Shown piece after piece: positions 42,366-63,826 of a stretch of DNA of 64,000 nucleotides. The notes below the pieces were generated by a model. That model was not told the DNA's origin and did no database searches. It saw only the letters and a list, made by a program, of their open reading frames with translations. Position 1 is the first letter of the stretch; the number at the start of each line of letters is the position of its first letter. The position numbers and the translations under genes were made by a program. The stretch is from Streptomyces sp. E2N166. Lineage in GTDB: Bacteria > Actinomycetota > Actinomycetes > Streptomycetales > Streptomycetaceae. Where the stretch lies: contig NZ_RAIF01000006.1 in NCBI RefSeq assembly GCF_003671715.1, positions 304,285-368,284 of the forward strand. The letters are read 5' to 3'.

Positions 42366-42384
42366 TTAGGTTAGGCTCGCCTAA
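42366..42384. promoter_or_regulatory. Iron box (DmdR/IdeR type) between cchK and cchJ
   Basis: TTAGGTTAGGCTCGCCTAA matches the 19-base consensus TTAGGTTAGGCTAACCTAA at 17 positions. It lies 20-50 bases from both divergent starts, so repression by an iron-loaded DmdR-type regulator would cover both genes. Confidence 0.9.
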
Positions 42385-43525: not shown

Positions 43526-43640
43526 GGTGTCGTCCGGATCCCGCCGGGGTCGCGGGGCCCGGCGCGCACATCCGCGGCGTTGCCGTCGGTTGCAAGGCAC
43601 CGTCGCCCGGAGCCGGCCTGATCCGAGCGACACCCTTGGG

Positions 43641-43665
43641 CGTGGCCCCGGATCACCGGGCCACG
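43641..43665. terminator. Stem-loop between convergent cchJ and cchI
   Basis: CGTGGCCC (43641-43648) pairs with GGGCCACG (43658-43665) around a nine-base loop. It overlaps the stop codon of cchI and lies 115 bases beyond cchJ, so it may end transcription in both directions. Confidence 0.5.
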
Positions 43666-45353
43666 GCCTTGCAGTAGTCCTCGTCGGTGGCGAGCAGGTT
43701 GCGATGCGTGTCCTCGGCGGTGATGACGCCGTCGTCCAGGACGAGGACCCGGTCGGCGGCGTCCAGGAGGGCGGGGCTGCTGGTGATCACGACGGTGGTG
43801 CGGCCCCGGCGCAGCTTCGCGACGTTGCGCGCGATGAGCTGCTCCGTCACCGCGTCGACGGCCGTCGTCGGGTCGCGCAGGACGAGGACGTCGGTGTCCG
43901 CGGCGAGGGCGCGGGCCAGGGACAGCCGTTGGCGCTGCCCGCCGGAGAGGTTCGCGCCGCGGTCGCGGACGGGATGGTCGAGCCCTTCGCGGTGCAGGGC
44001 GACGACGTCGGTCAGCATGGACGCCTCGACGGCCTCGGGGACCGTCCGGCTGGTGCCCGACGGGTCGATGTTCGTACGGAGTGTGCCCGCGAAAATCTCC
44101 CCGTCGTACGGGTTCACCAGCATGTGCTCACGGACCGCCTCGGTCGACAGGTCCGCGAGGTCCCGGCCGCCGACCCGCACGACTCCCTCGTACGCGTCGG
44201 GCGGGACGTTCAGGGCCAGGACCGACGCGAGGTCGGCCGCCGCGCGAGGCTGGTAGGCGGCGACGGCCACGAACTCGCCGGCGGCCACCTGGAACCTCAC
44301 TTTGCGCAGGGATCCGTGGCGCACGCAGTCGACCTCCAGGCCCCGGCCCGCGGCCGGTTGCTCCGGGCCCGGGGTCGTCACCGGGGGCGCGGTCAGGACC
44401 AGCGCCATCCGCTCGGCCGACGCGCGAGCGATCATCACGTACTTCGGCATCTCCGAGAACAGCTTGAGCGGTTCCATGATGAACTGCGCGAGTCCCACCG
44501 CCATGACGAGTTCACCGATGTTGATCCGGCCCTCGAACGCCAGCCAGCCCGCCGTCAGCGTCACGGCGGCGGCGAGGACAGCGTTGAGGGCCAGTGCGGT
44601 GCCCGCGTAGACACCGTTCACCCTGGCGACGGTGACCGACTGCTGCTTCGCCTCCGTGCTGACCTTCCGATAGGACCGGAACGCCGCGTTGTTCCCGCCG
44701 AAGCCGTGCAGCGGGCGCAGGCCGATGATCAGGTCGGCGACCTTCGCGCCGGCCCGTGCCACCCGGGCCTGCTGCTCGCGGGTGCTGGAGCCGATCCTTC
44801 TGGACATCACGCTCAGGATCGACAGGATCGCGACGGTGCCCACGATCACCAGCAGGCCGAGCCGGAGGTCGGCCAGGCCCAGCGCGATCGCCGCGATCAC
44901 CACCGCGACCAGTGAGCTGATCAGCAGCGGCACCACCTCGATGATGTCGGCGGTCTGGTCGGCGTCCTCCGTGGCGATGGTCAGCACCTCGCCCGACTTG
45001 AGGTCGACGTCCCTGGCCACCGGCTGGAGTCCGCAGGCCGCGACCCGTACCCGCCAGCGGTGTGCCTCGGTCGTGTTGGCCTTCTGCAGGATGCGCATCC
45101 CGAACCGCCACGACAGCGACACGGTGGTGATGATCACGGCCAGCGCGGCGATCGAGACGCCGAGCGAGCCGGGGCTCCGGTCCCGCATCGTGTGTTCGAC
45201 GATCAGGCCCAGGGCGATCGGGAAGGCGGTCTCACCGGCCTGGTACAGGCCCATGAGGACGGTGCCCCCGGCCATGGCGCCGATGTTGCGGCGCAGCGCG
45301 GTGCGCAGGATGTCGGACCCCGGGCGGGGCCGCTGGGTGTCAGGAGTCGTCAT
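43653..45353 (-). CDS. cchI: ABC exporter half-transporter with degenerate ATP site, CchI
   Basis: 566 residues from ATG 45353, overlapping the end of cchH by 14 bases. Six membrane helices (about 25-300) are followed by an ABC domain. The nucleotide-binding motifs are lost. Walker A is replaced by [18 protein letters not shown] (about 366, no GKS/T). The Q-loop Gln is absent in [12 protein letters not shown]. Walker B reads [12 protein letters not shown] (catalytic Glu replaced by Pro), and the H-loop His is absent in [10 protein letters not shown]. The signature [17 protein letters not shown] is perfect. CchG has the opposite pattern, so the two should form a heterodimer with one working site that exports coelichelin. 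Confidence 0.9.
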
Positions 45354-48300
45354 CGAGGTGGCGGGCAATCGCTTCCGGGGTTCGCAGGGTGAACAGATCA
45401 CGGATCGTGATCACAGGACCGTACTCCCGGCGGAGCAGCCCGGTCAGCCGCACCGCCAGCATGGAGTGGCCTCCGAGGGAGACGAAGTCGCTGACCGCGC
45501 TCACCTCGTCGTCGTCGAGGTCCAGTGCCTCGGCGAAGAACTCGCACACCGTGATCTCGGTTTCGGTCTCCGGGCTCCGCTCCCCCACCGTGGTCAGCGC
45601 GCCCAGCGGCTTGGCCTCCGGCAGCGCCTTGGCGTCGGCCTTCCCGTTCACCGTCAGCGGGATGCCGTCGACCTGGGCGTAGTGCGTCGGGCGCAGGAAG
45701 TCCGGCAGTCCGGCGCCCACTTCGGCGGCGACCTCGGCGAGGTCGGCCCCGTCCAGCACGAGGTAGGCGGCCAGCCGGTGCGCACCGTCGACCTGCGGAT
45801 CGGGCTGGGCGACCGCGGCGACGAACCGCACCGCCGGGTGCGCCGCGAAAGCGGCCTCGACCTCGCCCGGTTCGACCCGGTGCCCCCGGATCTTGACCTG
45901 CTGGTCGGTGCGCCCCAGGTACATCAGGTTGCCGTCGGGCCGTCGGACGACCAGGTCCCCGGTGCGGTACATGCGCTCGCCGGGTGCACCGAACGGGCAC
46001 GCGACGAAGCGGTGCGCGGTCTGGGCGGGCTGCCCGAGATAGCCCCGTGCGATCCCGATGCCCGACACGTACAGCTCTCCGGGAACGCCGTCCGGAAGCG
46101 GCCGCAGCCACGGGTCCAGGACGTACACGTCCGTGTTGTCGATGGCCACCCCCACCACCGGGTCCTGGCATTCGAAGGTGCCGACTCCGAGGGTGTTGAT
46201 GGTGTACTCGGTGGGTCCGTAGAGGTTGTAGCCGACGGTTCCCTCGGTCTCGGCGAGCCGCTGCCACAGCGCCGGGGTGACGGCCTCGCCGCCCAGCAGC
46301 ACCAGTGCCGGCCGGCGTGCCGGGTCGTCGAGCAGGCCCTCGGCCACCAGTTGCTGCGCGTAGGTCGGGGTCACGTTGATCACGTCGATCCCGTGTTCGA
46401 GGCAGTACTCGACCAGCCTGGGCGCGTCACGGCGCAGTTCCTCGTCGCAGATGTGCACCTCGTGGCCGTCGGCGAGCCACAGCAGTTCCTCCCACGACAT
46501 GTCGAACGCGAACGACACGGTGTGCGCGATCCGGAAGACCCGGTGCCCGTGCGCCGAAAGCACCGGTTCGAAGATCCGGCGCTGGTGGTTGACCAGCATG
46601 TTGGTGAGTCCGGCGTACTCGGTCACCACGCCCTTGGGCCTACCGGTCGATCCGGAGGTGTAGATCGTGTACGCGGGGTGCCGCAGCCGGTCGGGGTCGT
46701 CCGGCGCGAAGGTCACGAACGGCTCGGCCGCGGGCAGCGGGCGGTCCAGCTCGATCAGGTCGCCGGTCAGCCGGGGAGACACGGCGCTCACGGTGACGAT
46801 CACGTCCGGACCGGCGTCCGCGACGATCGCGGCGATCCGCTCGTCCGGGTGGTCCAGCTCCAGCGGCACGTACGCGGCGCCGACGCGCAGTACGGCGAAC
46901 AGCGCCACGATCGAGTCGAGGGAGCGCGGGATCGCGAGACCCACCGTCGCCTCGGGGCCGATGCCGCGCCGGGCCAGCACACCCGCCACCGCGCGACTGC
47001 GGTCCCGTAGTTCGGCGAAGGTCATGTGCGATCCGTGGGCGACGAGCGCGACGCGCTGCGGATCGCGGTCCGCGGCACGGTCGAACCGGTCGACGACGGT
47101 GTCCGTGCCGATGTCCGTGCGCGCTGCGGGCTCCGGCTCGGGGCCCGGGCCCCGCAGCGCTCCGACCGGCCCGGCCGACCGGGCCAGTTCTCCGAGTACG
47201 CGCAGGTAGTCGTCGAGGAGACGACGGGCCTTGTCCGTGTCCTCGTCGCGGTACTCCAGCTTGACGGTGAGCCTGTCGCCCGGTGTGACGACCCAGGTGA
47301 ACGGATAGTGGGTGGAGTCGTCGGCCTTCACCGAGGTGATGCCGTGCCTGGCGTTCATGCCGGCGAAGGCGTCCATGTCCAGGAAGTTCTGGAGGACGAA
47401 CAGGTTGTCGAAGAGGGTGTCGTGCCCGCCGGCCCGCTGGATCTCTCCGAGACCGAGGTGCTCGTGCTCCATGGCCTCGACCCTGGCCCTCTGGACGGCG
47501 GTCAGGTACTCCCGGACCGTCTGGTCCGGCCGGGCTCGCGTCCACATGGGCACGGTGTTGAGCAGTACGCCGACGATGTCGGAGAGTCCCTCGCCCTCCC
47601 GGCCGGAGACGGTCACGCCGAACACGGCGTCGCCGCGGCCGGTGTGTGCGCCGAGGAGGAGGCCGAACGCGCCGGTCAGCACCGAGTTCAGAGTGACGCC
47701 GTGCGTCCTGGCGGTTTCCCTCAGCAGGTCCGACCGATCGACGGTGAGCGTGTGTACGAGCGCGCGCGGCAGGTCGTCGGAGAGGGACGGCGCCGGGCCG
47801 GCGAGCAGCGTCGGGCCGGGAAGGCCGGCCAGGTACCGCGCCCAGAAGCGTTCCGATTCGGCCGGGTCCTTCGCGTCGAGCGCTCGGGCGTGGTCCTCGA
47901 AGCTCGGCGTGGCCGCGACCGCTGCCGGCGGCTCGCCCGCCAGGACGGCCTGATAGGCGTCGAACAGCTCCCGCAGCACGATCTCGCGGGACCAGCCGTC
48001 CCACAGCAGCAGGTGGTAGCTGAGGAGCAGACCGTCGCGGTCGCCGGGCAGGCGCACCACGGTCAGCCGGACCAGGGGCGGTCGGCCCGGATCGAATCCC
48101 GTGTCCCGGTCCCGGGCGCGCAGGGCTTCGACCTCCGCTTCCGTCGCCTTCTCGACGGTAGCGACGTCGACTCGCCGGCCCGCCGCGAGGATCTGGACGG
48201 GGTTTCCCTCCTCGTCGGTGGTGAAGCCGGCGCCCACGACCGGGTGGCGCGCGATCACGTGTGCCATCGCCTCGGCCAGCGCGTCGGCGTCCAGGCGCCG

Positions 48301-51300
48301 GTCGAAGGTGAAGTAGCTCTGCGCCACGTAGTGTCCGGCCGAGCCCGCCATCTGGGCCTGGAAGTACAGGCCTCGCTGGAGCGGGGTGACCGGTGCGGTG
48401 CGCTCGGCCGTCGTGGCGGCGTCCGCGATCTGTTCCAGTGCGCTGTGCCAGTGCCCGGTGATCTCGTCGGGGACGCCCTCGGCAAGGGTGAAGGCCGCGT
48501 GCAGGCTGCCGGTGGCCGCGTCGGTCCACGCGTTGACCTCGACGGCGTACGGGCTGGTCCGATCGCGGCCCGTGAGGTGCGGCGCCTGGGACTCGCCGCC
48601 CCGGCCGAGGTAGTTGAACAGCACCTGCGGGCGGGCGTTCAGCAGCGGAGCCGTCTGCGGGTTGAGATACCTGAGTTGCCCGTAGGCGACGTGCGCGTGC
48701 TCGTCCGGCTGGCGTCGTGCCACCTCGCGCGCGGCAGCGAGCGGGTCGGTGTGCGCCGTGAGCCGTACGGGCGCGATGGAGGTGAACCAGCCGACGGTAC
48801 GGCTGTAGTCGTGGTGCTCGAGGGCCGGGACCCGGCCGTGCCGCTCCAACTCGATGGCGAGGTCGGTGGGTGACGGCTGGATGTGTGTCAGCGCGGAACG
48901 CAGCGCGCCGCACAGCAGCTCGGTGAGACCGATGCCGAGTGCGGCGGGCGCGGTGCGCGTCACGAGGTCGCTCACCTGTGGTGCGAGCACGACCGTGGTC
49001 TCGCGCGGCTCCCTCGCCGGGGGCAGCGGCGCGGGAGCCTGGAGGGTGGTGATCCAGTGGTCCAGGTCGCCGACCGCGCGGGCGGACTGGAGCGTCAGTG
49101 CTTCTGCGTACTCGGCGTAGGACGTCGTCGGGGGCGCCAGGGGGGCTCCGCGCATCGCGGTGGCCAAGTCCTCCAGGAGGACCAGCCAGGAGACGGAGTC
49201 GACGGCGAGGTGGTGCACGGTGACCACCAGGGTCCGGCTCTTCTCCAGCCAGGTGAACGCGATGACGTCCCCGGACTCGGGATCGAGCCGCCCGGCGGCT
49301 TCGTCGGCCGCGGTCGTCGCGTCGGTGGTGTCAGTGGCGTCCATCCGGGTGACGGTGGTCTCGCGCGCGGGTTCGGTGCGCAGCGACCACACCCCGTGCT
49401 CGACGCTCAGTCGCAGGCGGAGGACCGGGTGCGCGGCCACGACGGCGTGCGCGGCACGCTCGACGTCGGCGAAGCCGGTGCCCTCGGGGGCCACCAGCGC
49501 CCTGGCCTGCGCGAACCGGGCGAGTGAGCCGCCCAGTTCGCGCTGCCTCAGGACGATAGGCGTCAGCGGCAGCGGGCCGTCCGCGCGGCGGGCGGCCGCG
49601 GGCACCGGGGTCCGCGAGGCGCTGGTCCCCAGGTGCTCGGCGAGGGCGCGCGGGGTCCTGAGCAGGAACACGTCCCGTGGCGTGATCGGCAGTCCGAGTG
49701 CCCTTGCCCGGTTGATCACTGTGATGGCGACGATGCTGTCGCCTCCGGCGCGGAAGAAGTCGGTGTCGGGGTCGGCGTCGTGGCCGGGGAGGGTGCCGGC
49801 GAAGATCGCGACGATGGCGGCGAGCGCGGAGTCGTCGGCGGCGTCGTCGTCCGCGGGTCCGGTGCCGCTGGTCGCGCCGCGCGCCGGGGCCACAGGTTGA
49901 CACCGCCCCTCGTCAATCAGGGGCGTACCCGCTCGCTCGGTCAGGGCCTTGCGGTCCAGCTTGCCGTTGACCGTCAGCGGCAGGGCGTCGACCGGCAGCA
50001 CCCGGCCCGGAATCATGTGCGCGGGCAGCTTCGTGGACAGCTGCTCGGTCAGGTCTTCGGTCGCCCGGCCCACGACGTGCGCCACCAGGTGGTCGCCGCT
50101 CCCCGCGACGGTGACGGCCGCGTCAGTCACCCCGTCGAGTTCCCTGATCGCGGCCTCCACCTCGCCCAGCTCGATACGGAAGCCCTTGAGCTGCACCTGG
50201 TCGTCGGCACGGCCGGTGAACTCCAACTCGCCGCCGAGCGTGCGGCGGGCGAGGTCACCCGTGTGGTACATGCGGGAGCCGTCGCCCGCGAACGGGTTCG
50301 CCACGAACCGGCCGGCGGTCAGCCCGGGCCGGCCCAGGTATCCGAGCGACACCTGGTCGCCGGCGACGTAGATGGCGCCCACCCTGCCCGGCGGCACCGG
50401 CCGGAGCCGGTCGTCGAGCAGGTAGGTGACCAGGCCGGGAAGCGGACCGCCGATGGGGCTGGCGTCGCCGCCGGGACCGAAGTCCTCGTCGGTCAGCACC
50501 CGGTGGGTGACATGGACGGTGGTCTCGGTGATGCCGTACATGTTGACCAGCTCGGGCGAACCGGTGCCGTGCCGCTCGACCCAGCCGCGCAGCCGCCCGA
50601 GGTCCAGCGCCTCGCCTCCGAAGATGATCCGCCGCAGCGCGGGCAGTGGTTCGCCGGCCTGCCGGTCGGCCTCGGTGAACTGGTAGAACGCCGACGGGGT
50701 CTGGTTGAGCACGGTCACTCCGCGCTCGCGGACCAGCCGGTGGAAGTCGACCGGGGAACGGGTCAGCCCGTACTCCGGGATCAGCAGCTCACCGCCGTGC
50801 GCCAGCGCCCCCCACAGCTCCCAGACCGCGAAGTCGAAGGAGAAGGAGTGGAACTGGACCCACACGTCGTGCGGTCCGAAGCCCATGTCGGACCGGGTGT
50901 TCGCGAGCAGCGTCACCACGCTGGAGTGCGGGACGACGACACCCTTGGGTCTGCCGGTCGACCCGGATGTGTAGATCACGTAGGCGGGGTCTGCCCAACC
51001 GGCCCCGGGCTCCGGCTCGGTGGTCGCCGCAGGCGGCACTTCCCCCTGCACGAGCACACGCGCCGGTACGCCCGCCCGGGCCAGCAGCCGCGTGAAGCGC
51101 TCGCGCTGCTCCGGGGCCACGAACACGACCTGCGGAGCGGAGTCGGCGAGTATGTACTCCAGTCGCTCGTCCGGGTACGCCAGGTCCAGCGGAACGTACG
51201 CGCCCCCCGCGCTGACGATCGCGACCAGGGCGACGACCTGTTCGACCGAGCGCGGGACCGCGACGGCGACCCGGCCGCCCGGTCCCACACCGGACGCGCG

Positions 51301-54300
51301 CAGTGCCGAGGCCAGCGTGCCCTTCGCGTCCGCCAGTTCGCCGTAGGTCAGGGACCGGGTCCCGCCGTCGAGACCGCACTGGGTGACGGCGGTGGCGGCC
51401 GGGTCCCGTAGCGCGGCGGCATCGAACAGACCGGCCAGGGTCGTCGGGGTGATGGGCTCCGTACGCCGTGGGACCCCCTCGGAGGTCAGCTCGTCCACCA
51501 GGGCGTCCTGCCGGGTGAGCAGGCCGGTGAGGGTCCGGGTGAAGGTGTGCAGGATCTCCTGGGCGCTCGCCTCCCGCAGGAGCTCGGCGTCGTAGATCAG
51601 GTTGAAGCGCGGGCGGCCGCCGGGCGCGCGCTCCACCACCAGCGTCAACGGATAGTGGGGAGCACCCTCGTTCACGATGCCGGCGATGACCAGCGTGTCG
51701 TCGGGCCGCCGCAGGGCGGCCACGTCGGTCGCCACGTCGAACACCACCAGGGTGTCGAACAGTGAGACGGTGCCGGCCTGGCGGGCGATCCTCGCCAGCG
51801 AGACGTGCTGGTGCGGCAGCACCGCGCTCTGGTGGGCCCTGACCGAGGCGAGCAGGTCACGTGCGGTGCTGGTACCGGCCCACTGGGCGCGCACGGGGAT
51901 CGTGTTGATCAACAGACCGACCATGTCCTCGATGCCGGGAACATCCGCGTCACGTCCGGACACCGTGGAACCGAACACCACGTCCCTGCCGTGCAGGATG
52001 CCGCCCAGCGTCACCGCCCAGGCGCTGTGCACGGCCACGCTCAGCGGTACGCCGGCCGACCGGGCGGCGGCGTCGATGTCCTCCTCGGCCTCCACGGAGG
52101 TGTCCGCGAACCGGTCCGACGGGGTGTGTCCCTCGGCGACCAGTGAGGGGCCGGGCAGCTCCGCGAGCTGCTCGCGCCAGACCCGGTCGCTCGCGTCGTC
52201 GTCGCGGGCGGCGAGCCGGCGGGCGTGGTCGGGGAAGCCGCCGAGCACGTGCACGCTCCCCGGCGCGTGGTACTCGGCCAGCAGGGTGCGCAGCATGGGC
52301 GGCACCGACCAGCCGTCGGCGACGATGTGGTGCACGGTCTGCACCAGGACGTTCCGGCCGGGGCCCCCGCGGACGAGCGTGTACCGCATCAGCGGGCCGG
52401 TGGCCAGGTCGAAGCCGGCCCGGCGGTCCCGCTCGGCGTGGTCGCGGATCTCGTCGTCGGTGATGCCGGGGCGGTCCAGCGTGGTGAAGGGCGCCTCGAC
52501 ACCGCTCTCCAGCACGGACACCACACGGCCGTCGGCGAGGGCCACGAACCGCGCCGCCAGGTTCGGGTGGAGCGTGAGCAGGCGGGTGGCCGCTGCCGCG
52601 AGCCGCTCGGCGTCCACCTCGCCCTCCAGTGTCAGCAGTTGCTGTTCGACGTAGCTGCCCGTCGAGTCGTCGTCGTAGACCGAGTGGAAGTACAGACCCT
52701 CCTGCAACGGGGTCAACGGCAGGATGTCCCGCAGCGCCGGGCCGTCCAGCGCGTCGACGTCGGCCTGGGTGAGCGGCACCGGAGCGAAGTCGCTGGGCGA
52801 GTGGCCGCCCCGGTCGAGCGCGGCCAGCCCGGTCAGGGCCTCCCGGAAGTACTCGCCGAGGGTTGCGACGTCCTCGTCGGTGAACATCCCGTCGGGCCAG
52901 GAGATGGCGGTGACCAGCTCGTACTCGCCGGTCGACGCGGGTTCCGCGATGGCGTTGAACTCCAGTGCGCGAGGCAGGCGCATCCGCGGATCGCGCCTCT
53001 CCCCCAGCTGACCCGTGGTCCGCGCGAGTTTCCAGTCGCCTGCCGCGCCGGCGTCGAAGCGGCCCAGGTAGTTGAACAGCACCTGGGGGGCGGGCGTGTC
53101 GAACCCGGTACGGGCCAGGTACCGCAGCGCGCCGTAGGAGACGCCGTTGTCCGGTACCCGGGAGAGGTCTTCCTTGACTGCCTTGAGCGCGGCTGCCAGG
53201 TACTCGGGTGCGGTGAGGTCAGGGGCCGTGCCGGGGTCCACGGTCACCGGGTACAGGGTGGTGAACCAGCCCACGGTCCGGGACAGTTCCGGTTCGAAGC
53301 CGGCCGACCGCGCGACGAACCGTCCCTCTCGGCCGTGGCCTTCCAGCTCGATGTGCGCGAACGTCTGGTCCTGGCCGAGGTCGCGGCGCCGGCGGGCGAG
53401 GGTGACGGCGAGCGCGGTCAGCAGCACGTCGTTGACGCCCGCGTGGAATCGCGCGGGTATCTCGCTCAGCAGCGCGGCCGTGGTCTCGGCGCCGACCGAT
53501 ACCGTCCGTACCCGCTCCCGTGCGACGGTGTCCGACTCGGACAGGGCGCGCCTGCCCAGCGGTTCGTCCGCCTCCGGCAGGGGGCGCCGGAAGTAGGCGC
53601 TGTCCGCGTCGAACGCCGCGCGCTCCAGCAACTGCGTCCAGCGCCGGAACGACGTGCCCGCCGGGGGCAGCTCCAACGGGTCGCCCGAGGCGAACTGCCG
53701 CCATGCCGTGGCCAGGTCGTCCATCAGGACCCGCCAGGACACGCCGTCGATCACGACGTGGTGGGCCACGAGCACCAGTTGCCGTGCCTCGCGGCGCCAG
53801 ACGGCGCGCAGCATCACGCCGCCCGTCGGGTCCAGCCCTTCGGTGGCGAGCGCGACGCACTCGTCGAGCGGCCGGTCGCTCTGCTGCCACCGCGCGACCA
53901 CGCCGTCCGCCTGCTCCGGCTGGTCCGCGTCCGGGATGTCGAAGCCCCAGCGGGCGCCGCGCACCAGCTTGGCCCGCAGCATGTCGTGCCGCCCGACCAC
54001 GGCGGCGAGGATCGCGTCGAGGGCGCCGGCGGTCAGGTCCGCCGGGGTGTTCAGCACCACCGACTGCACGAAGCCGTCGATGGCGTCGGTGGTCTCGCCG
54101 AGCCACTGCACGACGGGCGATCCCACGACGGGGCCGGTCGCGACGTCGCGGTGGTCCACGGTGGAGGTGTCCTCACGGCTCGCCACCGCCGCCAGTGCCC
54201 CCACGGTGCTGTGGGTGAAGATCTGCCGTGCCGTGACGTGGAGCCCCGCGTCGCGCAGCGCGCTCAGCAGCGAGATGGCCAGGATGCTGTCTCCGCCGAG

Positions 54301-56322
54301 CTGGAAGAAGTCCTGGTCGACACCGACCTCGTCCAGTTGCAGCAGCGCCGCGACCGCCGCGCACACCGCGCGCTCGTTCTCGGTGGCGGGTGGGACGAGC
54401 GGAGCCTGCCCGGCCGCGGGCTCGGGCAGCGCGTGCCGGTCCAGCTTGCCGTTCGCGGTGAGCGGGAACTCCTTCATCGCGACGATGTGGGCGGGCACCA
54501 TGTACTCCACCATGTGCTCGCCGGCCCACGCCTTGACGTCGGCCGCCCGCAGGCCGCCGTGGACCGCGGCCGGGATGACGTACCCCACCAGGTAGGTGCC
54601 GCCCGCCGCGTTCTTCTTCGCGAGGACGCAGGTGTGCCGGACCCCGGGGTGCTCGGCGAGGGCGGCCTCGACGTCCTCGATCTCCAGCCGCATACCGCGG
54701 ATCTTGATCTGGTTGTCGGCCCGGCCGAGGAAGTCCAGCGAGCCGTCGGGGGCGAAGCGCGCGAGGTCACCGGTCCGGTACAGCCGGGACCCGTCACCGG
54801 CGAAGGGGTTCGCCACGAACCGGGACGCGGTCAGGCCGGGCGCTCCCACGTACCCGCGTCCCAGGAGGAACCCGCCCACGTACAGCTCGCCGCCGACGCC
54901 GACCGGGACCGGGCGCAGTGCCTCGTCCAGCACGTACAGCCGGGTGTTGGGGTTGGCCCTGCCGATCGACGTCGACAGCCGTTCCGCCGCGCCCCGGTAG
55001 ACGACGTGCGAGACACCGATCGTCGTCTCGGCGGGGCCGTAGCCGTGGTACATGGGGATGTCGAGCCGGGTGCGGAACCGCTCGTACAGTTCGGGCGTCA
55101 GCACCTCGCCGCCGCACCAGACGTGCCGCAGACTGTCGAGCCGCCCGGAGTCGCCCGACATCTCCAGCAGCACGTCCAGCATGGACGACACGAGATAGGT
55201 GAAGGTGACGCGCTGCTCGGCGATCACGCTCAGGAGGTGGTGCGGGTCGCGTTCGCCGCCGGGACGCAGGACCACCAGCCGGGCACCGCAGACCAGCGGC
55301 AGGAAGATCTCGTTGATGGAGATGTCGAAGGACAGCGGCGCCTTGAACAGGGACGCGTCGTCGTGGCCGAAGCCCAGGATCTCGTGGACCTGCCACAGCA
55401 GGCGCTCGCTGATCGCCTCGTGCCGGATCATCGCGCCCTTGGGCCGCCCGGTCGAACCGGACGTGAAGATCACGTAGGCCAGGGACTGGCCGAGGACGCC
55501 GACCGTGGGCCCTTCGGCGGGGTGGGAAGCGTATCGCCAGTCGCCGAGGTCCACGGCCACTGCTTCCGGTTCGCCCGCGGCGGACTCGCCCGAGGTGTTG
55601 AGCTGCACCACGACCCGGGCGTCCTCGATGACGACGGCCCGGCGCGCGGCGGGCCAGTGCGGATCGAGCGGCACGAAGGCGCAGCCCGCCTGGAGCACGC
55701 CGAGCAGCCCCACCACCATGTCCGCGGAGCGCTCCAGGGAGATGCCGACGACCTGCTCGGCGGTGAGTCCTCGTTCGACCAGGTGGTGAGCCAACTGGGA
55801 GGCCAGCGCGGCCGTCTCACGGTACGTCAGCGTCCGGTGCTCGTCGACGACGGCCACGGCTTCCGGCCTGTTCCGCGCCTGTTCGCGGAACATCTCCACC
55901 AGGGTCGGGCGGCTCCGGTCGGCGTCGGTGTCGTTCCACTCGGCCAGGTCCTCCAGCCGCGCCTGCCTGCTGGACGGGCGAATGGTGCCGACGGGCCGGT
56001 CCGGGAAGTCGGCCAGGTCGTCAAGGGCGAGCTGCGCGTCGTCCGGTACGACGCCTTCGGGGAGGGAGATGCTCCGCAGGTCCGCTCCGACGTCCCAACC
56101 GCGGGGTGCCGCACCGCCGCTGGCGACCCAGCCGAGGACGTCGGTGAACAGGGTGCCGGGGGCGAGGTCGATGCCGTCGGGACTGCGGCCCGTCGCCCAG
56201 TACGACAGCCCGATGGCGCACGCCTCGGCGATGGTCCTGTCGGAGAAGTCGCCGGTGCGGCGGCGGATGTCGGTCAGGTGCCCGGGAGAAAGCAGTACGA
56301 GACGAGCGGTCGGTTCCATCAT
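45340..56322 (-). CDS. cchH: Coelichelin nonribosomal peptide synthetase
   Basis: 3660 residues in three modules without a thioesterase: A1 (about 140-640), T1 (Ser 679), E1 (730-1180), C (1195-1630), A2 (1640-2115), T2 (Ser 2196), E2 (2245-2660), C (2665-3095), A3 (3100-3560), T3 (Ser 3620). Specificity codes read from the sequence are DINYWGGIGK (A1), DFWNIGMVHK (A2, threonine) and DMENLGLINK (A3). These are the codes known from S. coelicolor CchH for formyl-hydroxyornithine, Thr and hydroxyornithine. Two epimerisation domains give two D residues. Motifs are [14 protein letters not shown] (E1), [11 protein letters not shown] (first C), [12 protein letters not shown] (E2) and [11 protein letters not shown] (second C, first His replaced by Tyr). 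Residues 1-140 resemble a vestigial condensation-domain end. The start MME follows a distant GGAAGGGG site. Iron boxes lie at 56350-56383. Confidence 0.96.
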
Positions 56323-56349
56323 CGAAGACTCAACGCCCCTTCCAAGGAA

Positions 56350-56383
56350 TCAACGCAGGCTAACCTAACTTAGGCATACCTAA
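56350..56383 (-). promoter_or_regulatory. Two overlapping iron boxes upstream of cchH
   Basis: Two 19-base windows (56350-56368 and 56365-56383) each match the IdeR/DmdR consensus at about 14 positions, with cores AGGCTAACCTAA and TTAGGCATACCTAA. The second covers the TAG stop of cchG (56380-56382), so the cchH promoter lies partly in the 3' end of cchG. Confidence 0.75.
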
Positions 56384-58167
56384 CTACCTTCTCGCCAGGC
56401 CCGCCACAGCCGGGCGTACCGGCCACCGAGAGCCACCAACTCCTCGTGGGTGCCTTCCTCCACGACCCGCCCCGCGTCCAGCACGGCGATCCGGTCCGCC
56501 GCCATCGCCTGGGTCAGCCGGTGCGCCACGAACAGCGTGGTCCGGCCCGCGCAGGCGGCCAGCACGGCCCGTTCCAGCTCGGCGGCGCCCTCGCTGCCCG
56601 CCTCCGCGGTCGACTCGTCCAGCACCACCACCGGCGAGCGGCTCAACACCAGCCGCGCCAGGGCGACCTGGGCGACCTTGGTGACGTCCAGGCGCTCGCC
56701 GCCTTCGCCGACCGGGGTTCTCAGCCCGTCGGGCAGCGCGTCGACCCACGCTTCGGCGCCGACCGTGCGCAGGGCGTCCATGAGTTCGGCGTCGGTCGCC
56801 TCCGGTGCGGCCAGCCGCAGGTCGTCGGCGAGCGGCCCGGAGAACACGTGCGCCTCCTGCGTCAGGATGCTCACCAGGGCCCGGGCCCCCGCCTCGTCCA
56901 GTCCGGCCAGATCGGTCGGCCCCACGCGCACCGACCCGGCCCGCGGTGTCCCGATGCCCGCGATCAGCGCGGCCAGGGTCGTCTTGCCCGCGCCCGTCGC
57001 CCCCACCAGGGCGAGCGAACCGCCCGCCGGGATCGTCAGGTCGACGTCTCTGAGGACCGGCTCCTCGGTGCCGGGGTAGGCGTACGTCACCCCCTGAACC
57101 GTCACCGGGTACGGCACGGCGTCCGCCACGGCCACCGACGGGTCACCCACCAGCCGGTCCTCCGCGTCCTCACCCAGCACCCCGACCAGGCGGGTCAGAC
57201 TCGCGCCCGACTTCTGCGCCTCGTCGAAGGTGAACATGATGGCGCCCAGCGGGGTGAACAGCCGGTGGAACAGCAGCGGGGCCGCCGACACCTCGCCCAG
57301 GCTGGCGGCGTCGGCCTCCAGCAGGGCGTACCCCACCACGATGATCAGGGTCAGTCCGATGAACTCGGCGCGGTTCTCCCTGCCGACGAACCGGCCGAAG
57401 AAGCGGAACACCTCGATCCCGAGATCGCGCACTCTCCACGACTCGGCGGTGACCTTCTCCCGGAAGGCGCCCTCCAGTCGGTACGCCCGGACCGTGTCGA
57501 TCCCGTTCAGACCGCTGATCAGTGCCTGCGCGCGATCGGCCTGCGCCACCCGCTGCTTCCGGTAGAGCGGCGCGGACCTGGGAAGGTACCAGCGCAGGGC
57601 CAACGCGTACGCGGGCAACGCGCCGGCGCCCGCCAGACCGATCCGCCAGTCCAGCCCGAACATGCCCGCCGTGGCGATGACGACCAGGACCCCCGCGGAG
57701 AACACCGTGGGGACGGCCGTGCGGATGCCGTTGGAGATCACGGCGACGTCGTCACCGACCCTGGACAGCACGTCCCCTCGGCCGACCTGCTCGATCCGGG
57801 TGCTGGGCATCCCCAGTACCGCCCGGACGGCGCCTTCCCGCAGCCGCGCGAGGAGGTCGGCGCCCAGCCGCCCGATGAGGTACGTCGACACCGCGGTGGC
57901 CACCGCGCCGAGCAGGGCGGCTGCCACCATCAGGGCCCCGATCGTGACCAGGACCGATCGCGACGCGCCCTCGACCACGCCGTCGACCACTCGGCCGAGC
58001 AGAAGCACGGGGAGCACCTGGAGCGCCGCGCCGGCCACCGTGGTGAGCACGGTGGCCGCCGTGAGCCACGGCACCTCGCGGCAGTGCGCCCCGATCCATC
58101 GGCCGGCCTCGCGTCCGGTCGCCGTGCGCAGCGCGGCCGGGGCGACGCGCGTGTCGGTGCTGGTCAC
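56380..58167 (-). CDS. cchG: ABC exporter half-transporter with intact ATP site, CchG
   Basis: 595 residues from GTG 58167, two bases after the cchF stop. Six membrane helices (about 25-310, for example WLTAATVLTTVAGAALQVLP) precede the ABC domain. Walker A is LVGATGAGKTTLAALIAGIG (about 388), the Q-loop is ILTQEAHVFSG, Walker B is SPVVVLDESTAEAG (about 512) and the H-loop is LFVAHRLTQAM. The signature that should read LSGGQ is replaced by GERLDVTKVAQVALARLVL (about 490). This is complementary to CchI, with which it probably forms the coelichelin exporter, although the two genes are separated by the 11-kb NRPS gene. Confidence 0.92.
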   Translation of the reverse strand: MTSTDTRVAPAALRTATGREAGRWIGAHCREVPWLTAATVLTTVAGAALQVLPVLLLGRVVDGVVEGASRSVLVTIGALMVAAALLGAVATAVSTYLIGRLGADLLARLREGAVRAVLGMPSTRIEQVGRGDVLSRVGDDVAVISNGIRTAVPTVFSAGVLVVIATAGMFGLDWRIGLAGAGALPAYALALRWYLPRSAPLYRKQRVAQADRAQALISGLNGIDTVRAYRLEGAFREKVTAESWRVRDLGIEVFRFFGRFVGRENRAEFIGLTLIIVVGYALLEADAASLGEVSAAPLLFHRLFTPLGAIMFTFDEAQKSGASLTRLVGVLGEDAEDRLVGDPSVAVADAVPYPVTVQGVTYAYPGTEEPVLRDVDLTIPAGGSLALVGATGAGKTTLAALIAGIGTPRAGSVRVGPTDLAGLDEAGARALVSILTQEAHVFSGPLADDLRLAAPEATDAELMDALRTVGAEAWVDALPDGLRTPVGEGGERLDVTKVAQVALARLVLSRSPVVVLDESTAEAGSEGAAELERAVLAACAGRTTLFVAHRLTQAMAADRIAVLDAGRVVEEGTHEELVALGGRYARLWRAWREGS

Positions 58168-58169
58168 AC

Positions 58170-59228
58170 CTACCCGACCGACTTGACGAGTTCGTCGATG
58201 GCGTACGGCATGGACAGCAGGGTGCCCTGGGAGATGGCAGCGCCGACCGCCGGGCCCTCGCTGTCCAGGAGGTACGACACCTTGCCGTTCTTGACGGCGT
58301 CGAGGTTGGTGAAGAGCTCGAACTTCTTCAGCTTGTCCTGGTCCGCCTTGTCGTTGATGACGAAGATGCGGTCGACGTCGACCAGGTCGACACGCTCGGG
58401 GGAGAGCTTCGTGTAGAAGCTGCCGTCGGCGACCTTGTCGATCTCGGTCTGGTACTTGAAGCCGATGCCCGTCACCAGCCGTCCGCGCACGTCGGTGGAG
58501 GTGAACGGCGCCACCGAGTCCTCGTACCAGGACAGGGCGACGGCCGTCCGGTCGGCCAGCTCGGGGTGCGCCTCCTTGGCCGCGTCGAGCTGACCCTGGA
58601 TGTCCGCCACCTTCTTCTCGCCCTCCTCGGCCTTGCCGAGCGCCTTGGCGATGTGGAGGGCGTTGTCCTGCCACGGAGCGCTGAAGGGCTCCTTCTCGGC
58701 CTTGGTGCGGCCCACCGTCGGGGCGATCTTGGAGAGCTTGTCGTAGGCGGCCTGGTCGATCTCCGAGTAGACCGCGATGATCAGGTCCGGCCGCAGGGCG
58801 GCGATCTTCTCGAAGTTGGGGCCGGAGTCGCCGTTCTTCATGATGACCTCGGGCTCGGTGTCACCCCACTTGTCCTTCACCCACGGCCACTGGGTGTTGA
58901 TGTCGGGGCTCCGACCCGGCGGGTTCGGGTACTGGTCGACCATGCCGACCGGCTTGATGCCGAACGCCAGGATGGTCTGGTCGTCGGTGTAGCCGACGGA
59001 GACGACCCTCTTGGGGGCCTCGGTGACCTTCGTGGTGCCGAACGCGTGCTCCACGGTGACCGGGAAGGCGCCGGAGGCGGCGGCCGAGGTGTCGTTGCCC
59101 GCCTTGTCCGCCGAGTCGTTCGAGTCGGAACCGCAGCCCGCGAGGAGGCCGGCGCCGAGGGCGGCGGCGGACAGTACCGCCGCCAACCGCTGCCGGGACT
59201 TCATACGCGTCGTTCTGTGGAGGAGCAT
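58170..59228 (-). CDS. cchF: Ferric-siderophore-binding lipoprotein
   Basis: 352 residues. ATG 59228 is preferred because AAGGGA precedes it (59204 is an alternative). A lipoprotein signal ends in the lipobox LLAGC with Cys32. The mature protein is a PBP2 (FepB/FhuD-type) fold: APKRVVSVGYTDDQTILAFG, then KPVGMVDQYPNPPG, LRPDLIIAVYSEIDQAAYDK and LSPERVDLVDVDRIFVINDK. It is anchored to the outer face of the membrane and hands ferric coelichelin to the CchC/CchD permease. The iron box at 59296-59320 lies upstream, and cchG follows in the same transcription unit. Confidence 0.93.
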   Translation of the reverse strand: MLLHRTTRMKSRQRLAAVLSAAALGAGLLAGCGSDSNDSADKAGNDTSAAASGAFPVTVEHAFGTTKVTEAPKRVVSVGYTDDQTILAFGIKPVGMVDQYPNPPGRSPDINTQWPWVKDKWGDTEPEVIMKNGDSGPNFEKIAALRPDLIIAVYSEIDQAAYDKLSKIAPTVGRTKAEKEPFSAPWQDNALHIAKALGKAEEGEKKVADIQGQLDAAKEAHPELADRTAVALSWYEDSVAPFTSTDVRGRLVTGIGFKYQTEIDKVADGSFYTKLSPERVDLVDVDRIFVINDKADQDKLKKFELFTNLDAVKNGKVSYLLDSEGPAVGAAISQGTLLSMPYAIDELVKSVG

Positions 59229-59295
59229 CCGGAGATCCCTTGCTGTCGCACTGTCCACTGCGCCCCCGTCTAAGGGCAGCAAACCTTACCGCGCC

Positions 59296-63807: not shown

Positions 63808-63826
63808 TTAGGTGAGCCTAAGCTAA
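63808..63826. promoter_or_regulatory. Iron box between divergent cchB and cchA
   Basis: TTAGGTGAGCCTAAGCTAA matches the 19-base consensus at 16 positions, among the best in the locus after the cchK/cchJ box. It lies 86 bases before cchB and 133 bases before cchA. Confidence 0.85.

Follow-up and report, generated by a model that had tools for sequence, protein, structure and literature searches.

In dimers of ATP-binding cassette (ABC) transporters, the consensus ATP site is built from the A-loop, Walker A, Q-loop, Walker B and switch of one subunit and the signature, D-loop and X-loop of the other (passages of PMC12038006). TM287/288, TmrAB, BmrCD and MsRv1273c/72c are pairs of half-transporters with one such consensus site, formed by the Walker side of one half and the signature and D-loop of its partner. 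At the degenerate site, tight nucleotide binding without hydrolysis is reported for TM287/288 and BmrCD, and in MsRv1273c/72c this site holds ATP on a Walker A (passages of PMC5216877 and PMC12038006). A 64,000-nt stretch of Streptomyces sp. E2N166 (contig NZ_RAIF01000006.1, positions 304,285–368,284; 'the window') carries a coelichelin-type cluster with cchF, cchG, cchH and cchI all read from the minus strand. CchG and CchI likewise have one consensus and one degenerate site, with the polarity split between them; this pair differs in how much is lost: Walker A, the Q-loop Gln, the Walker B Asp, the catalytic Glu and the switch His in one half, the signature and D-loop in its partner. They are probably the two halves of a single-nucleotide-site type IV ABC transporter, most likely exporting coelichelin or a related siderophore.

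Both proteins have the type IV ABC exporter fold, PF00664 and PF00005 being found in one chain, each over its curated cut-off (61.7 and 39.0 bits in CchI; 119.9 and 64.0 bits in CchG). CchG keeps the A-loop (VTYAYPG), Walker A, Q-loop (ILTQEAHVF), Walker B with its catalytic Glu and the switch His (FVAHRL), and has lost the signature and the D-loop, the latter position reading AEAGS versus SLLD or SALD in relatives. CchI keeps LSGGQ and the D-loop and is without Walker A, the Q-loop Gln, the Walker B Asp, the catalytic Glu and the switch His (VITSSPAL, His to Ser). In the alignment, its A-loop stretch has four residues fewer and the A-loop column holds no Tyr; loss of the A-loop is less certain, since a Tyr or His stands close by. 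The first-pass annotation had described CchG as keeping Walker A, Q-loop, Walker B/Glu and H-loop with a replaced signature, and CchI as keeping LSGGQ without Walker A, Q-loop Gln, catalytic Glu and H-loop His. Translation and motif coordinates agree with both descriptions and every loss named is real, but the list was incomplete: the CchI Walker B Asp and the CchG D-loop were missing from it, and each of these losses falls on the side that complementarity predicts.

Given the make-up of the consensus site in ABC dimers, one composite site collects the intact motifs of CchG and CchI and the opposite site those that are lost, and only one composite ATP site is predicted to form. CchG would give the A-loop, Walker A, Q-loop, Walker B/catalytic Glu and switch His, and CchI the LSGGQ signature and D-loop, closing over the ATP. 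The opposite site (Walker side of CchI, signature/D-loop side of CchG) would be without nearly all its parts and probably binds no ATP. CchI would thus be a non-ATP-binding partner, contributing one half of the channel and covering the sole active site as its lid, and the substrate moved outward would most likely be the siderophore. That CchG and CchI form an obligate heterodimer is well supported at the level of sequence. The first-pass annotation had proposed as much, with the CchG-Walker/CchI-signature site as the sole workable one and an 11-kb gene between the two halves; that gene is cchH (10,983 bp), and the sequence tests run favour the proposal, the covariation test being uninformative.

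Conservation was assessed in 246 same-genus genomes, with five candidates scored per genome. CchI orthologues (82–100% identity) were found in 59 and CchG orthologues (83–100%) in the same 59, and all 59 pairs were read; next-best same-genus matches reach at most 40% (CchI-like) and 49% (CchG-like) identity. In CchI, Walker A, Walker B Asp, catalytic Glu, Q-loop Gln and switch His are present in 0/59, and LSGGQ and the D-loop Asp in 59/59. The pattern in CchG is the converse, with Walker A, Walker B Asp, Glu, Q and His each in 59/59 and signature and D-loop Asp in 0/59. The degenerate site thus keeps a Walker A in none of these pairs. A CchI homologue with a normal Walker A, which the first-pass annotation had said would count against it, was likewise absent from 116 further S1 and core-family members (classes defined below). 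cchG and cchI are directly adjacent in four of the 57 genomes having both on one contig; two genomes (G099 and G229) have the genes on two contigs each and enter the per-side counts only. The ratio of nonsynonymous to synonymous substitution rates (dN/dS; NG86, a rough estimate from 18 cchI and 21 cchG pairs at ≥93% identity) was 0.15 for the nucleotide-binding domain (NBD) and 0.13 for the transmembrane domain (TMD) of CchI, and 0.13 for the CchG NBD (CchG overall range 0.12–0.13). Both subunits are therefore under purifying selection, and the low value for the CchI NBD argues that this broken domain is not drifting freely.

Among the best 60 structure matches listed for each family profile, the best half-transporter chains were TmrB and TM287 for the CchI family and Sav1866, TM288 and TmrA for the CchG family. 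According to the published descriptions, the consensus-site Glu517 lies in TM288 and the canonical-site Glu523 in TmrA, so that each Cch subunit resembles the half whose polarity it shares (CchI like TM287/TmrB, CchG like TM288/TmrA). Unlike the known asymmetric exporters, the clade of this pair seems, from its motifs, to have wholly abandoned a second ATP site. Human ABCB5beta, a eukaryotic isoform and an atypical half-transporter that also comes up in connection with a lack of Walker A, is not known to have a partner with a complementary loss. No recognised account of complementary loss or pairing in CchG/CchI, or of a family of bacterial Walker-A-less half-transporter pairs, was found in the open-licence literature, a body of text that mostly excludes subscription papers.

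The complementary breakage appears to be a trait of many actinobacterial pairs and not special to coelichelin. Using the CchI-family profile, matches at E ≤ 1e-130 were obtained in 79 of the 394 genomes sampled from the class, in 31 of 137 genera; the border of the family is blurred, the phylum sample being empty between 4e-172 and 6e-119 and the class sample reaching down to 1.6e-131, near the cut-off. The CchG-family profile, run on 75 of these 79 genomes, gave a match at E ≤ 1e-150 in 70. Loci compared comprised 61 of group T2 and 18 of group T3 (same genus; a selection among the matches listed) and 28 from other genera, including Saccharothrix luteola and Kibdelosporangium philippinense, plus classes S1 and S0; from one search set of 80 loci, three close members were used and the other 77 (E 7e-37 or weaker) left out. 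The next relatives of cchG/cchI are mostly adjacent pairs, with the CchI-like gene first and the CchG-like gene second. In the motif tally (170 + 4 pairs, counted by locus), the CchG-like signature is lost in 166 of the 170 pairs with a Walker-A-less CchI-like half, near-consensus (LSGAQ-like) in three and LSGGQ in one. Incomplete NBDs were left out of this tally (G-side of L122, I-side of L117, one piece of L301), and L093 and L120, which have no complete CchI-like frame, contribute G-side counts only.

In six genomes (the five without a CchG-family match at that cut-off, G804, G844, G860, G868 and G911, and also G687), the E-value-limited searches had suggested a CchI-like gene without a partner; reading of the loci rejected this, a partner adjoining in 6/6, over two frames in G911. 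That CchG-like gene (L301; G911 C1, about 57–59 kb) may reflect a frameshift, a pseudogene or a sequencing error, as may another CchG-like gene for which one internal TAG is reported (L312; G727 C2:85627-87366). A CchI-like gene with one in-frame TGA (L093; G128 C2:1930953-1932620) lies ~13 kb from the coelichelin cchG of that genome.

The host genome has 24 PF00664 matches, 23 of them above the cut-off. Walker A is lost in three subunits (CchI, C54:1245470 and C39:805971), and the adjacent partners are without a recognisable signature (3/3); no other host NBD among the census rows lacks Walker A. These rows include one without an NBD, one without the post-signature part and two fused proteins with one NBD each. 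PF00005 matches at the four fused-protein NBD places and at the NBD-less row begin before Walker A, at profile position 1 or 2. The C54 and C39 subunits lie in L263 (C54:1243533-1246231) and L264 (C39:804157-806750), two adjacent host pairs besides CchG/CchI in which one half has lost Walker A and its partner the signature. Directly beside the C39 pair is a degenerate pair of the SAGE-like/Asp kind, where Walker A is kept.

The classes differ in how much of the degenerate site remains. In S0 (four loci, L264b and L270–L272), the CchI-like half keeps Walker A and His (4/4) and has neither catalytic Glu nor Q-loop Gln (0/4), the partner signature being SAGE-like; these pairs look like TM287/288 in motif state. 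The nine S1 loci, of which the host genome has two, are without Walker A, Q and His in the CchI-like half and without the signature in its partner; the catalytic Glu is kept in 8/9 and the partner D-loop Asp in 9/9. Throughout the core clade (T1, T2, T3 and other genera), the partner D-loop Asp is lost and the CchI-like Walker B is mostly H/R-D, the Walker B Asp remaining in 7/18 T3 and 1/28 other-genus loci and the catalytic Glu in 11/58 T2, 9/18 T3 and 5/28 other-genus loci. Decay along a simple ladder from TM287/288-like pairs (S0 to S1 to core) was considered and dropped, because S0 is without the Glu (0/4) that S1 keeps (8/9), as do 9/18 T3 loci. A pair in the ancestral state with just one half broken was not identified among the compared pairs.

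In both subunit trees (98 chosen pairs; quick, with no mixture model and rooted on S0 by choice), S1 forms a clade, as do the core members. One tree mirrors the other (r = 0.97 for the 98 pairs; r = 0.97 for 85 core pairs, with 0/1000 permutations as high), with 62 of 95 splits in common. In the column covariation analysis of the two NBDs, for which the effective sample is too small to give this weight, the strongest inter-subunit link joins CchI alignment column 728 (the residue immediately before the signature) to CchG column 538 (immediately after Walker A), and these columns are the two faces of the predicted live site.

Iron-uptake or siderophore markers occur in the flanks of 50/61 T2, 14/18 T3 and 18/28 other-genus loci, versus 0/9 S1 and 0/3 S0. 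An uptake marker was found in 5/64 T1 loci, a figure of little weight because most of these were cut at the two genes. Since the markers flank core loci and not S1 or S0, the core clade is linked to iron. CchG and CchI would be members of an actinobacterial family of obligate pairs that is associated with iron and siderophores and akin to asymmetric exporters of the TM287/288 type. In the window, the pair lies in the coelichelin gene run, which has an iron box at its head, and CchI has been described as an ABC transporter with a possible role in coelichelin export (passages of PMC3765725). Export of coelichelin by CchG/CchI is likely.

Several observations weigh against an obligate pair exporting coelichelin. 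Some CchG-like proteins of group T2 have a consensus or near-consensus signature although their partners are without Walker A: an apparently complete LSGGQ in L092 (G094 C1:461050-464624), LSGAQ in three others, and LSGER or LSGDR in a further three, tallied as lost; these signatures may be drift at an unconstrained position, in L092 possibly drift toward the consensus. Column covariation between the two NBDs (160 pairs, effective number 35) revealed no enrichment at the live or the dead site. Linked genes also mirror without interaction, so that the mirrored trees support an interaction and do not prove it. AlphaFold2 models were of poor quality, with mean pLDDT values of 59 (CchI) and 49 (CchG), from 4- and 3-row alignments of window and related-locus sequences. 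The pair is also not confined to genomes with the coelichelin synthetase: using the first 1107 aa of CchH as query, no CchH orthologue was found in five genomes with adjacent cchG/cchI orthologues (L044 in G029, L057 in G031, L059 in G154, L054 in G066 and L303 in G628), where the best matches are NRPS (non-ribosomal peptide synthetase) modules with 41–45% identity, versus 85% in G195. For cchB, there is no match at 1e-60 in G029 and G628, a 60% relative lies elsewhere in G031 and G154, and G066 has an orthologue at 83%. Around the pair, no siderophore genes were found within about 7–8 kb either side in G628, and in G029 (<3 kb either side) there is just an ABC ATPase with a weaker FecE match. 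The occurrence of cchG and cchI together without the synthetase favours the pair as a unit, and at the same time uptake, recycling or another siderophore substrate has to be considered.

The most serious alternative, held to be unlikely, is that the CchG/CchI heterodimer imports or recycles a ferric siderophore, as do the type IV importers IrtAB and YbtPQ, which are likewise siderophore-linked heterodimers with an exporter fold, and does not export new coelichelin. The five genomes just described speak for it, four of them having no cchB orthologue, as do binding-protein, FecE and FecCD genes adjoining the pair in G031, G154 and G066, as if for siderophores made by others, and group T3, where FecCD genes adjoin 14/18 pairs and an NRPS match was found in just 3/18 (flanks of about 5 kb). 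The best 60 PDB matches of CchG alone include YbtP (6p6i_A; E 4.7e-50), but it ranks under Sav1866, TmrA and an MsbA, and neither IrtAB nor YbtPQ appears in the best 60 of either family-profile search; the closest solved half-transporters of CchG/CchI are thus not of this importer type. The cluster also has an importer of its own, CchCDEF (passages of PMC3924187). As a control, a protein encoded beside the CchG/CchI-like pair in L308 had YbtQ (2.8e-100) and IrtB (2.8e-93) as best half-transporter matches, and in L300 (G868) and L308 (G673) an Irt/Ybt-like pair, so classed by scores >1000 with one of the four proteins checked, lies directly beside the CchG/CchI-like pair, so that the two are not substitutes there. 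Counts of other Irt-like loci were not used, CchG-like proteins themselves being matched. CchG and CchI appear nearer to exporters than to IrtAB/YbtPQ, and transport would run outward.

Two further explanations deny CchI its place in the active site. CchG could act as a homodimer, or with another partner, through an unorthodox signature, leaving CchI accessory or regulatory. It keeps every Walker-side motif and so probably binds ATP alone, and the two further Walker-A-less subunits of the host genome could in principle pair with it; however, signature and D-loop are both lost in every CchG orthologue, all CchI orthologues keep LSGGQ and the D-loop at low dN/dS, co-occurrence is invariant and the trees are mirrored, which makes this explanation very improbable. 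That CchI is instead a decaying pseudo-transporter, with its motif losses due to neutral decay, is scarcely credible: many catalytic residues are indeed lost and Walker B is variable (H/R/Q then D/N in CchI orthologues; LDEP in some T3), but the frames are open over at least 569 aa in 59/59, dN/dS is 0.13–0.15, LSGGQ and flanking residues are near invariant, and even the former Walker A segment is conserved, with Y, Q, P and R at 0.95–1.0 per column. An obligate CchG/CchI exporter with one ATP site remains the preferred reading. CchG-CchI fusions were not noticed among the loci read, in which no dedicated search for them was made.

Features of the locus are collected in Table 1. Gene names are those of the first-pass annotation; the match to SCO numbers rests in part on passages of PMC3924187 and PMC3765725. 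cchG starts with GTG, 2 nt beyond the cchF stop, and cchI with ATG, in a 14-nt overlap with the end of cchH. cchH is taken to be the NRPS gene of the coelichelin cluster, and a similarity search with part of CchH matched NRPS-length frames. Neither iron box was recovered in 100 shuffles (0 boxes). The S. coelicolor SCO0498 and SCO0490 box sequences are printed in passages of PMC7174319, and the coelichelin cluster of that species has the same two iron-box sequences and, as described for it, cchI convergent to cchJ as well. In the window, cchI and cchJ are convergent and 127 bp apart (43526–43652); read-through of the cchI transcript into cchJ is reported for S. coelicolor (passages of PMC3765725).

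Table 1 Features of the cchG/cchI locus (window positions).
Feature	Position	Strand	Basis or remark
CchG, 595 aa ABC half-transporter (TMD+NBD)	56380-58167	-	Translation and motif coordinates
CchG Walker A VGATGAGKTT, intact	56977-57006	-	Consensus in 59/59 orthologues
CchG former signature RLDVTKVAQ, replacing LSGGQRQR	56668-56694	-	
CchG Walker B VVVLDESTAEAGS (VVVLDE, catalytic Glu), then lost D-loop AEAGS	56593-56631	-	
CchI, 566 aa ABC half-transporter	43653-45353	-	Translation and motif coordinates
CchI former Walker A, without GxxxxGK[ST]	44229-44261	-	
CchI intact signature NLSGGQRQR	43926-43952	-	
CchI degenerate Walker B (LVLRDP; Asp to Arg, Glu to Asp) and intact D-loop (TTAVD)	43854-43886	-	
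cchH (3660 aa; 10,983 bp), between cchG and cchI, same direction	45340-56322	-	
CchF, siderophore-binding protein	58170-59282	-	PF01497 found in CchF relatives L054, L057
DmdR1-type iron box, head of cchB-to-cchI gene run	63808-63826	-	Sequence identical to S. coelicolor SCO0498 box
Second iron box, upstream of cchJ	42366-42384	+	Sequence identical to S. coelicolor SCO0490 box

It is an evenly balanced proposition that the siderophore-linked clade and its non-iron sister clade have dispensed with the second nucleotide site, with strictly one ATP site per pair and the dead face acting as a nucleotide-free contact. The losses in the two subunits seem to be coupled, with Walker A, Q and His going together with the partner signature and then, in the iron clade, Walker B with the partner D-loop. 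If this is true, the tightly held degenerate-site nucleotide, proposed to keep the NBDs together in TM287/288 and BmrCD, would not be essential to the fold. For annotation, cchG/cchI-like pairs would be treated as one transporter, even if an 11-kb gene intervenes. Members apparently unable to bind ATP at the dead site would offer a natural test of the need for a second ATP site, and relatives with and without that site exist side by side.

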